A stretch of DNA of 6,525 nt. It comes from Candidatus Zixiibacteriota bacterium (GTDB lineage: Bacteria; SM23-81). Made by a program: the position numbers and the translations under genes. Each line of letters begins with the position of its first letter. Within the stretch, counting starts at the first letter, position 1. Positions 179 to 4,442 of the stretch are shown here, piece after piece. The notes under the pieces are model-generated. The model made no database searches. It saw only the letters and a list, made by a program, of their open reading frames with translations, and had not been told where the DNA came from. The DNA is taken from assembly GCA_030628225.1 (NCBI GenBank), contig DAOVRJ010000144.1:1-6525 (forward strand). The letters run 5' to 3'.

Positions 179-1546
179 ATGAAAGACCCATCTAACCTTA
201 TCTCCGATCTACGCCGGGCCATGATCAAGGGAGATCTCCCTCCCTGGCGGGCGGAAGCTGCTCTTCTGGACAAAGGAGTGAAGAGCCCGATCCATTTTTA
301 TCTGGCTGCCCTGACTCGCAAGGCCTATATAGAGGAAATCTCCGGCGAGAAGTTCTGCCACCTCCACGTTATGGAAAGGCCCTATATACAGCCGTGGCGG
401 TGTCCCAAAGACGACATCATCTATAATCTGGAGGCACAGGAGAAGGACCTGACGTGCACTGTATGCAGATCGTCCCTTAAGCCATACAAGGGGTCTGAAC
501 TTAGCTATGCGCCTTTGGTTGCATCTTATGTGGCCGGGTTGGAGGACTATATTTCATACTGCGGCCAGGTAACTGTCAAGGGGGAGGTGAACAAGGATTT
601 CATCAACCTCACATCTATGGGGCCTGGCATGTCGGCCATCGGTCTGGCCAGGGGTTGTTTTCTGGTCAACCGCTGGGGTGGGGCAGAGGTTCAGGTGGAG
701 CCGCTGGCCACAACGGCGCGCTGCATGGGCCATATCTTCGCCGACCCCGGGGTGCGCCATAAAGCTCAAGAGATCATCCAAGCTAATTTGGATAAGCTGA
801 AAGCCATTGTCAACGAAGGTATGGCCAAGGTGGGGGCGCAGGTGGGTGAAGTCGTGTTCGATACGGGTGCCCTTGGTTCTGATCACTTTCTCTACGTCTG
901 TTTTTACGCCGACCTGCCCGAGTATCGCGGTCATGGTGAGATAAGCTGGTCCGTGGGCCAGGCCCGAGAGATGGCAGATTCTATTCTAAGGAAGGCAGGG
1001 GTGGATTTCAAACTGAGCGTCATCGCCCAGGGGTATGATGGTGATTACAAACCAAGCCCCTCCAACAAACGTGGCCGGCGAGCCAGCGCCCAGGTGCGTG
1101 TTCCGGTGAAGGAGATGGAGGATTTTCTGGGCAAGTCGGTGGATCGTTTTTTAGCCTTCAATGAGATGGATCGCCTGGGCGTGGAGAAGCTGGGTTGGTT
1201 CTACCACACCGGCATGGGGGCGGAGGTTATCTCCGGGTTGTACAAGGCCACCCGGGTGAATCCGCGCATGCCTATGACCACTTGCCTGGAACGCATCTAT
1301 GCACATGTCGAGGGGAACGATCTGGTCTACGGTGTGGAGCTGCCTACCGTAGAGGTTGGGGTGTGGTCCTCCATAGAAGGCGGGATCCCGCCCATCGGGC
1401 GGGAGGTGATGCGCATCATGGGTATCACCAATACCAGAGAGTTCTGTGCCAATTTAGCCGCCCAGGTGATGGCCGGGGAATTTAATCTAGCCTGTGAGAT
1501 CGTCAGGGGGAAGTTGTATACCAAAGGGGTGAAGAGGTTGTATTGA
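179..1546 (+). CDS. HMG-CoA reductase-like protein, atypical, with Cys-rich N-terminal region
   Basis: 455 residues; not recognised with certainty. From about residue 120 to the end it can be aligned by eye with class II HMG-CoA reductases: a segment around GPGMSAIGLARG (148-159) ending in an RWGG turn (165-168), a helix followed by the strand EVVFDTG (224-230), SNKRGRRASAQVRVP (295-309) in the place of the family's 'ARAQVRI' strand, VYGVELPTVEVG (383-394) in the place of 'GTLEMPMPVG', and VMRIMGIT (410-417) in the place of 'LRILGV'. Glu122 could match the catalytic Glu of the ENVIG motif. The catalytic Lys, Asp and C-terminal His do not appear to be conserved, the DAMGxN cofactor motif is absent, and the C-terminal flap domain is missing. 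The N-terminal 110 residues carry Cys60, Cys75 and a C93-x-x-C96 pair, suggesting a metal site. No signal peptide, so probably cytoplasmic. It stands alone between its own promoter and a terminator. The gene is secure; the family assignment is tentative, and true HMG-CoA reductase activity is doubtful. Confidence 0.85.
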   Translation: MKDPSNLISDLRRAMIKGDLPPWRAEAALLDKGVKSPIHFYLAALTRKAYIEEISGEKFCHLHVMERPYIQPWRCPKDDIIYNLEAQEKDLTCTVCRSSLKPYKGSELSYAPLVASYVAGLEDYISYCGQVTVKGEVNKDFINLTSMGPGMSAIGLARGCFLVNRWGGAEVQVEPLATTARCMGHIFADPGVRHKAQEIIQANLDKLKAIVNEGMAKVGAQVGEVVFDTGALGSDHFLYVCFYADLPEYRGHGEISWSVGQAREMADSILRKAGVDFKLSVIAQGYDGDYKPSPSNKRGRRASAQVRVPVKEMEDFLGKSVDRFLAFNEMDRLGVEKLGWFYHTGMGAEVISGLYKATRVNPRMPMTTCLERIYAHVEGNDLVYGVELPTVEVGVWSSIEGGIPPIGREVMRIMGITNTREFCANLAAQVMAGEFNLACEIVRGKLYTKGVKRLY

Positions 1547-1732: not shown

Positions 1733-2938
1733 TTGGATTATTTGGAGCTTTTAAAAAGCCTGGCCATTCCGGCAAAAACGAAAATTGTCCTGCTGGTGCT
1801 GGATGGCGTGGGCGGACTTCCCCGAGAAAAGGATGGTAAGACGGAGCTGGAAGCAGCCATAACACCTCATCTGGATGCTCTGGCCAAGGAATCCTCCTGC
1901 GGATTGATGGATCCCATTGCCATGGGCATCACGCCGGGCAGCGGGCCCTCCCATCTGGCTCTTTTTGGCTACGATCCTTTGAAGTATCAAGTGGGACGAG
2001 GTGTGCTGGCTGCGTTGGGAATCGGGTTTGAGCTGCAAACAAGTGATGTGGCCGCCCGGATCAACTTCGCCACCGTCGATGAACAGGGTCTGGTGACCGA
2101 TAGGCGGGCGGGCAGAATTTCTACAGAGGAGAACGAAAGGCTCTGCGATCTGCTCAAGGATATCCGCATCCCGGGAGTGGAGATTTTCCTGCGGCCAGTC
2201 AAAGAACACCGGGCCATGGTCGTTTTTCGGGGAACAAACCTATCCGGAGCCTTAGCTGATACAGATCCGCAACAGCTGGGAGTATCTCCCAGGAGGGTCC
2301 AGCCATTGTCGCCAGAATCCCAGGGGACGGCCAAGATCGTCGAGGAATTCATCGCTCAGACCAGGAAATACCTGGTGGATCAGCGTCCAGCCAACATGAT
2401 TTTGATGCGCGGATTCGACCGGTATGAGCCTCTGCCATCTCTGGAGAAACTCTACGGTCTCCGATCGGCAGCCATCGCTCTGTACCCCATGTACAAAGGC
2501 GTGGCCAGGCTGGTGGGTATGGAGGTCATCGGCTCGGCGACAACCGTCGGCGAAGAGTTTACCGTCCTGACGGAGAACTTCCCCGATTACAGCTTTTTCT
2601 TCCTGCATGTAAAACAGACGGACAGCGCCGGTGAGGACGGGAATTTTGAGAGGAAGGTGGCCGTCATCGAAGAGGTGGACCGTCTTGTGCCCAAGCTGAG
2701 GGCTCTGGATCCGGACGTCATCGTGGTCACCTGCGATCATTCCACTCCGGCGGTGCTTTGTTCTCACAGCTGGCATGCGGCGCCCATGCTATTGTATTCC
2801 AAATATTGCCGGCCGGATTTTACAGGGGCTTTTACCGAGCTAGAGTGTGCCAGAGGTTGCTTGGGCCGATTTCCCACGAGGAAAATGATGGCTCTGGCCC
2901 TGGCAAATGCGCTCAGGCTAACTAAATATGGTGCCTAG
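1733..2938 (+). CDS. apgM: Archaeal-type cofactor-independent phosphoglycerate mutase
   Basis: 401 residues, normal length for the ApgM family of the alkaline phosphatase superfamily. It should interconvert 3-phosphoglycerate and 2-phosphoglycerate in the cytoplasm (glycolysis/gluconeogenesis) without 2,3-bisphosphoglycerate. Visible motifs: IVLLVLDGVGG (18-28) with metal-binding Asp24; GLMDPIAMGITPGSGPSHLALFGYDP (57-82 region) with the likely phosphorylated nucleophile Ser70; EHRAMVVFRG (158-167), substrate-binding His/Arg; RGFDR (226-230); HVKQTDSAGEDGN (292-304), metal-binding region; TCDHSTP (333-339) and HSWH (345-348), the C-terminal metal ligands. Glu301 and Asn304 stand where archaeal members usually read HDGD, probably lineage variation. 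The start is TTG with AGGGGG upstream. The stop overlaps lnt by 11 bp. The related 'proposed homoserine kinase' subfamily is less likely because the PGSGPSHLALFGYDP form is that of ApgM. Confidence 0.92.
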   Translation: MDYLELLKSLAIPAKTKIVLLVLDGVGGLPREKDGKTELEAAITPHLDALAKESSCGLMDPIAMGITPGSGPSHLALFGYDPLKYQVGRGVLAALGIGFELQTSDVAARINFATVDEQGLVTDRRAGRISTEENERLCDLLKDIRIPGVEIFLRPVKEHRAMVVFRGTNLSGALADTDPQQLGVSPRRVQPLSPESQGTAKIVEEFIAQTRKYLVDQRPANMILMRGFDRYEPLPSLEKLYGLRSAAIALYPMYKGVARLVGMEVIGSATTVGEEFTVLTENFPDYSFFFLHVKQTDSAGEDGNFERKVAVIEEVDRLVPKLRALDPDVIVVTCDHSTPAVLCSHSWHAAPMLLYSKYCRPDFTGAFTELECARGCLGRFPTRKMMALALANALRLTKYGA

Positions 2939-4442
2939 GTGGGTACATGCATTGCGCCGGCGCACTTTACTGCTATGTGTGATCTCCGGTCTCCTGTTCA
3001 GCTTATCCTTTCCCCCTTATCATCTGGGTTTTTTGGCCTATTTCTGCCTCGTTCCTCTCCTGTTCGCTCTCACGCAACAACATTCTGAGCCCTCCTTCGG
3101 CATCGGCCTGGTGATGGGGTTGACCCTTTACGGGAGCACCTTTTTCTGGATCGCCTGGGCGACTTTGCCCGGCGCCCTGGGAGCCATCGCCTTCCTGGCC
3201 CTGTATCTTGGCCTCTTTGCCCTGATCTTTCGCTTTGTCCTTCAAAGGTGGGGTTTGATTGTTCTTTGGGCCTTTCCTTTTTTCTGGACGGCCATGGAGT
3301 ATCTGCGGTCTCTGGGGCAGCTCGCCTTTCCCTGGACCTCCATATGCTATTCGCAGACGGAGTATCTGCCCCTGATTCAATTCGCCAGCCTCACCGGACC
3401 ATATGGCGTCTCGTTTTGGCTGGCAATCATCAACGTGGTGATCTTCTGGACCCTGTGTCGCTGGCGGCGAGGGAAGTACGTGCTTTTTTTCCTCGTTCCC
3501 CTATTTTTATTTCCTTATGCATACGGGAAAAGGGCCATTCCCGAGAATCCGTTGCCCGGTGATCTCAAGGTTACCATCATTCAGCCGAACATAGACCCCG
3601 ACGTCAAGTGGGATTCTCGATTCATCGAGCACAACTTTGATGTGCTCATCGACCGGACCCGAGAGATTGAACCGGAAAATACCGATCTGGTGATATGGCC
3701 GGAGACGGCTACGCCGTGTTATCTTGTACGCCAGAGAAACTATTATCAAAGAGTTCGCAATCTGGTGGACGAGTTGGGAGTGCCCCTGTTGACTGGGTCT
3801 CTGGACTATACTGATCTTGATAATGAGCAGAACAAATATTTTAACTCGGCCTTCTTTTTTGTTCCCGACCGCCCTGGAATTCAGCAGTATTCCAAGATGA
3901 AACTGGTTCCCTTCAGTGAGAAGATTCCTTACGACGAGAAGATTTCCTTTCTGCAGAAGATCAACATGGGCGAGGCCGATTTCACCCCGGGTCAGGATTG
4001 GACCATCTTTCACCACCCGCGGGGAAAGTTTGCTGCTCTGATCTGCTTCGAGTCGATTTTTCCTCAGTTGGCCAGAGAATTTTGCCGGAGGGGGGCGGAA
4101 TTTCTGGTGATCATCACCAACGACGGATGGTTCGGCAAAACCACAGCTCCTTTTCAGCATGCTCAGATCGCCGTCTTTCGAGCCATCGAGAATCGTATCG
4201 GCATTGCTCGCTGTGCCAATACCGGGGTATCCATGGTCATCGACCCCTTCGGGAGGGTCAGGAACAGGACGGCCATTTTCGTGGAGAGAACCGTCACAGC
4301 TGGGCTTTCCCTCCGCAGAGGGAGCACATTTTATAATCGCTACGGTGAATGGCTGAGTTGGGCCTGTGTTGGAGTAACCGCCGTGTTTCTTATCGTTGGG
4401 TCTTTTCGAAGGAAGAGATTGGAGCTTTTTCGAGGACCGTGA
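2928..4442 (+). CDS. lnt: Apolipoprotein N-acyltransferase
   Basis: 504 residues, close to the roughly 510 of E. coli Lnt. The enzyme works in the inner membrane and moves an acyl chain from phospholipid to the N-terminal Cys of diacylated apolipoproteins, the last step of lipoprotein maturation. About seven N-terminal membrane segments are visible (near 12-27, 33-50, 57-78, 84-103, 109-125, 160-177, 184-200), then a periplasmic nitrilase-fold domain (about 213-460) and a final membrane segment (476-493). The catalytic triad is present: Glu259 in VIWPET, Lys323 in YSKMKLVPFSE and Cys373 in LICFES. The supporting Glu331 and Glu375 and the NDGWFG motif (398-403) are also present. It should therefore be active. 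The ATG lies inside the 3' end of apgM, with only a weak CAGG upstream, so translational coupling is likely. GTG at 2931 is an alternative start. Confidence 0.97.
   Translation: MVPRWVHALRRRTLLLCVISGLLFSLSFPPYHLGFLAYFCLVPLLFALTQQHSEPSFGIGLVMGLTLYGSTFFWIAWATLPGALGAIAFLALYLGLFALIFRFVLQRWGLIVLWAFPFFWTAMEYLRSLGQLAFPWTSICYSQTEYLPLIQFASLTGPYGVSFWLAIINVVIFWTLCRWRRGKYVLFFLVPLFLFPYAYGKRAIPENPLPGDLKVTIIQPNIDPDVKWDSRFIEHNFDVLIDRTREIEPENTDLVIWPETATPCYLVRQRNYYQRVRNLVDELGVPLLTGSLDYTDLDNEQNKYFNSAFFFVPDRPGIQQYSKMKLVPFSEKIPYDEKISFLQKINMGEADFTPGQDWTIFHHPRGKFAALICFESIFPQLAREFCRRGAEFLVIITNDGWFGKTTAPFQHAQIAVFRAIENRIGIARCANTGVSMVIDPFGRVRNRTAIFVERTVTAGLSLRRGSTFYNRYGEWLSWACVGVTAVFLIVGSFRRKRLELFRGP
4432..4435 (+). 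promoter_or_regulatory. Ribosome binding site for the propeller gene inside lnt
   Basis: GAGG within the last codons of lnt lies 6 bases before the ATG at 4442. That ATG overlaps the lnt TGA stop as TGATG, which supports this start and stop-start coupling. Confidence 0.6.

Follow-up and report, generated by a model that had tools for sequence, protein, structure and literature searches.

The window analyzed here, the whole of a 6,525-bp contig (C148), comes from a 2.34-Mb assembly that is 92% complete, and all of its genes lie on the forward strand. The first open reading frame, at positions 179 to 1546 (stop codon at 1544 to 1546), was judged to be real and is preceded by a GGGAG at positions 167 to 171, which is a likely ribosome-binding site. 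It encodes a protein of 455 amino acids with a predicted class I HMG-CoA reductase (HMGR) fold and without the HMGR catalytic residues. A hairpin followed by a T-run at positions 1621 to 1646, resembling an intrinsic terminator, stands between this gene and the next, apgM (1733 to 2938), which is followed by lnt, encoding apolipoprotein N-acyltransferase (2928 to 4442), and by a gene for a beta-propeller protein, cut short by the end of the contig (4442 to 6525). By profile match, ApgM is the archaeal type of 2,3-bisphosphoglycerate-independent phosphoglycerate mutase, here present in a bacterial genome. The beta-propeller protein contains Reg_prop repeats, and its match to the T9SS protein PorZ is below the cut-off (160.7 bits versus 260); a full-length version in the related genome G001 (L045, 13393 to 15867) has a C-terminal segment that looks FlgD-like. 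As the preliminary description had observed, the window holds no other mevalonate-pathway gene.

The single sequence scores 27.7 bits against PF00368 (E = 1.7e-6), barely over the cut-off of 27 bits, and matches TIGR00533 with an E value of 8e-9; a phmmer search of the PDB with the same sequence retrieved no HMGR, only chance matches. Four orthologues were obtained from genome and contig searches, and all five members of the resulting family match PF00368 (best E value, 1.1e-10). Searched against the PDB, the family profile matched 6hr7, an archaeal class I HMGR, with an E value of 1.7e-13 and the human enzyme with one of 3.5e-4. Profile-profile comparison with hhalign aligned the family with class I HMGR over 357 columns (E = 1.5e-20; probability, 99.3%), whereas the match to class II was not significant (E = 0.011; probability, 3.8%). 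The alignable blocks are collinear across 300 residues, and a 45-sequence tree places the family within class I as a single clade (SH-aLRT, 100) that sits on a very long branch. On these profiles and the predicted structure, the protein is certainly a remote homologue of HMGR on the class I side, and by sequence and predicted fold it belongs to the HMGR-fold superfamily (PF00368); its sequence profile does not place it in class II. The searches thus led to HMGR and not to an unrelated family, the outcome that the preliminary description had set against its own reading. Its choice of class II as the template was nevertheless wrong, and the missing flap domain to which it drew attention is uninformative, because the class II flap domain is absent from class I HMGR.

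The AlphaFold model of the protein has a pLDDT of 89.6 and a pTM of 0.89 when calculated from an alignment of the family with 28 HMGR-type sequences, whereas the family sequences alone gave a poor model (pLDDT, 47). The good model superimposes on the Methanothermococcus enzyme (6hr8) with a Z score of 32.1 and a deviation of 2.1 Å over 314 residues; the Z score is 30.9 for human HMGR (1dqa) and about 26 for class II enzymes. The overall fold is therefore also like that of the class II enzyme from P. mevalonii, which differs in giving no significant profile match and in having the catalytic residues that the family lacks. Both hhalign and the model place helices at the N terminus (amino acids 1 to 62; positions 179 to 364), of which the part from residue 38 onward aligns with the N-terminal helix of HMGR. 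An insertion of approximately 45 residues follows (amino acids 66 to 110; positions 374 to 508), which corresponds to a gap in HMGR. It carries the pattern C75-x2-D/N78 ... C93-x2-C96, with all three cysteines invariant in the family, and looks like a putative zinc ribbon with one non-Cys ligand. Searched alone against Pfam, the N-terminal 124 residues matched no named family. A LexA-like match at the N terminus (E = 0.01 to 0.03) was set aside, as these helices also align in part with the N-terminal helix of HMGR.

The catalytic residues of human HMGR are Lys691, Glu559, Asp767, and His866, and the HMG pocket is formed by Ser684, Asp690, Lys691, Lys692, Asp767, Glu559, Lys735, Asn755, Leu853, and His866 (PMC7503714). 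Each of the four catalytic residues is invariant in the 27 class I sequences that were compared and is kept in none of the five family members. The Glu559 column falls in the block equivalent to ATTEG...NRG of HMGR (amino acids 144 to 159; positions 608 to 655), where three members, including that of the window (P149), have proline and two orthologues have threonine; the earlier suggestion that Glu122 is the catalytic glutamate was therefore mistaken. The Lys691 column is occupied by tyrosine in three members (Y290 in the window) and by leucine in the other two. It lies in the GDYKP of the cis-loop (amino acids 283 to 300, AQGYDGDYKPSPSNKRGR; positions 1025 to 1078) and not at FYHTGMG (341 to 347), where the preliminary description, correct about the absence of the lysine, had placed it. 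The adjoining K291 is the equivalent of Lys692 and keeps its own spacing, and D289 preserves Asp690. In the stretch from amino acids 343 to 362 (HTGMGAEVISGLYKATRVNP; positions 1205 to 1264), the Asn755 column holds E349 and the Asp767 column holds N361, both family-invariant; the latter lies within KATRVNP, as had been proposed. The His866 column contains Gly, Gly, Gln, Pro, and Arg in the five members (G450 in the window; positions 1526 to 1528), and there is no histidine after residue 376, in agreement with the earlier observation.

These columns were the same under four alignment settings, except that in one setting the His column was gapped in two members, and HMMER alignments to 6hr7 and human HMGR concur on the columns they cover. 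A shift in register cannot restore the catalytic set, since there is no other Glu, Lys, Asp, or His near enough in the sequence. The DAMGMN nicotinamide motif is replaced in the family by (E/N)(Y/F)R(G/A)HG, which reads EYRGHG in the window (amino acids 248 to 253; positions 920 to 937), inside the region from 248 to 259 to which the replacement had been assigned. Judged from the alignments, the family thus has neither the class I catalytic tetrad nor a DAMGMN-type motif, and the proposal that the protein has an HMGR fold but no reductase active site is borne out by the profile-profile comparison, the predicted structure, and the columns of all five members. Three of the ten HMG pocket residues are retained (Asp690, Lys692, and Leu853, the last as L437). 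Among the lost contacts, Ser684 is replaced by Ala or Pro, Lys735 by Met or Leu, and Asn755 by Glu. Arg568 and Arg590 are also preserved, as R158 and the family-invariant R181 (positions 719 to 721), respectively. What the family shares with class I HMGR (6hr7/6hr8 and human 1dqa) is therefore the fold, the order of the blocks, and the columns of Arg568, Arg590, Asp690, Lys692, Leu853, and Leu862, whereas the Cys-rich insertion has no counterpart in HMGR.

The four orthologues are 79, 76, 46, and 45% identical to the protein of the window. The nearest relatives come from a candidate division Zixibacteria SM23_81 genome (L005) and from a metagenome-assembled genome (MAG) labelled Deltaproteobacteria (L004); L005, L002, and L045 (G001) are one and the same contig. 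In a sample of 386 genomes taken around the lineage of the window and across bacteria, true members were found in four (the window's own, G001, G004, and G105), with L004 contributing the fifth; the family is therefore rare, and its hosts belong to rare uncultured lineages. A PF00368 match in a further genome (G345) was due to chance and falls inside a glucose-6-phosphate isomerase gene. No relatives were found in viral contigs, phages, or plasmids. The flanking genes are common to the window and G001 only and differ in the genomes of the other members, and no conserved partner or pathway neighbor was found beside the family genes. In L004, the HMGR-like gene has an 8-bp overlap with the preceding gene (2030 to 3046), a possible glycosyltransferase by a weak Pfam match. 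The dN/dS ratio of the HMGR-like gene, calculated from the copies in the window and G001, is about 0.083 (0.128/1.55), compared with 0.093 for apgM and 0.106 for lnt, values that are rough because synonymous sites are near saturation. Across the five members 142 positions are invariant, of which 33 are polar or aromatic residues hardly found at these positions in class I; they include E122, D123, R250, H252, Y286, R300, D331, W340, T344, E349, K356, N361, E387, E392, and R412. The gene is under strong purifying selection and encodes a working protein, not a relic.

A search of the literature found no earlier description of such an HMGR-fold family, the closest being FcrA, a fatty acyl-CoA reductase derived from class I HMGR that uses NADPH and retains the four catalytic residues (PMC11948995). 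Most class I sequences of the HMGR type in bacteria probably belong to FcrA (PMC11948995). The present family and FcrA are both class I offshoots, FcrA in bacteria that lack the mevalonate pathway and the family in bacteria that are probably without it, and both lack Lys735 and Ser684. Unlike FcrA, in which the Glu/Lys/Asp/His tetrad is intact, the family has lost it. Among the 27 class I sequences, the Leu862 column holds the FcrA-type Trp in 18 and the Ser684 column holds Glu in 19, whereas the family has Leu at the former and Ala or Pro at the latter; the beta-rich lipid-carrier domain of FcrA is also not seen in the family protein. Identity with FcrA was rejected because the tetrad, the bulky residue at the Leu862 column, and the Glu at the Ser684 column are all missing, and by its sequence the family is a third branch, neither HMGR nor FcrA. 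Three divergent bacterial sequences of the class I HMGR/FcrA type with an intact tetrad were also encountered (L027, 448 to 1683, forward strand; L036, 1498 to 2658, reverse strand; and L044, 1438 to 2613, forward strand), and among them are the odd cis-loop and cofactor motifs SSIKK, GEAAGQN, and HGQDLEKRPS.

PF00368 searches found no second HMGR in the genome of the window and no canonical HMGR in G001, G004 (just 59% complete), or G105. The genome of the window encodes a Dxr that is 45.6% identical to that of E. coli, and dxr, ispG, ispH, and uppS were found in the approximately half of G001 that was searched, indicating that isoprenoids are probably made by the MEP pathway. IspG was not found in the genome of the window, which probably reflects an assembly gap or MAG incompleteness; the mevalonate pathway that this absence first suggested is countered by dxr in the same assembly and by dxr, ispG, and ispH in G001. 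Another contig of the window's assembly (C172) carries a gene for an archaeal-type HMG-CoA synthase (L080, 1453 to 2499, reverse strand; TIGR00748, 554 bits versus a cut-off of 353), adjoining an open reading frame for a 932-residue acyl-CoA ligase. The synthase gene is unremarkable in composition but may come from contamination, and no archaeal-type HMG-CoA synthase was found in the searched half of G001.

The reading that we favor, with a probability of roughly 0.5, is that the family is a conserved branch of class I HMGR that has been repurposed in bacteria and would hold an anionic, perhaps CoA-linked ligand without reducing it with NADPH. The retained Arg158, Arg181, Asp289, and Lys291 suggest that the old pocket may still bind such a ligand, whereas HMG itself is disfavored by the loss of Lys735, Ser684, and Asn755, and hydride transfer by the loss of both the catalytic set and the nicotinamide motif. 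Around the old site, the residues that are invariant only in the family suggest an active site rebuilt for nonreductive chemistry, in which R250, H252, Y286, E349, K356, and N361 might act on the ligand by, for example, hydrolysis, elimination, or isomerization. A third, nonreductive enzymatic function of the HMGR fold in rare bacteria, combining this rebuilt site with a zinc-binding insertion, is advanced tentatively, at somewhat less than even odds. Several points weigh against the favored reading: no substrate, partner, or conserved pathway neighbor was found, and the flanks agree only in the two closest genomes; structural constraints may account for the retained anchors; the archaeal-type HMG-CoA synthase means that HMG-CoA or a similar compound may exist in the host cell; and the good structural model depends on HMGRs in its alignment.

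The main rival, which appears rather unlikely, is a noncatalytic pseudoenzyme, serving as a sensor or scaffold that would bind a metabolite in the HMGR pocket and contact a partner through the zinc-ribbon-like insertion. The replacement of every catalytic residue and the invariant Cys triad are consistent with such a role, but the old active-site loops contain many polar residues that are invariant in the family only, a pattern more to be expected of an active enzyme, and no conserved partner gene was found nearby. The preliminary description had offered either a repurposed fold or a nonenzymatic relative; purifying selection excludes decay but does not separate these two. Less probable still is a protein that continues to reduce HMG-CoA or another acyl-CoA at a rearranged site, in which residues such as K291, E349, H252, and N361 would stand in for those lost. 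The protein is the sole HMGR homologue in its genome, D289 and K291 are retained, and the assembly has an archaeal-type HMG-CoA synthase and no detected IspG; nevertheless, nothing is left of the tetrad or the DAMGMN motif, the MEP pathway is probable from the dxr, ispG, and ispH genes, and G001 likewise lacks a canonical HMGR. A decaying or misassembled HMGR gene, for which nothing speaks beyond the missing residues, is scarcely credible for a gene that is intact in five genomes of several lineages, has a dN/dS of about 0.08, and shows the same replacements or family-specific invariants in all members. Chance resemblance of an unrelated family, compatible with the marginal single-sequence results, is ruled out for practical purposes by the family-profile and profile-profile scores, the collinear blocks, and the structure match.

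HMGR is among the best-studied enzymes and is the target of the statins, and to our knowledge the only use known for its fold is the reduction of HMG-CoA or fatty acyl-CoA. Since the protein passes the Pfam cut-off, annotation based on PF00368 would wrongly assign an HMGR, and hence a step of the mevalonate pathway, to such genomes. A strongly conserved family in which the whole catalytic set has been exchanged would demonstrate that the HMGR fold can be used in a new way, and in these bacteria it probably serves another purpose.
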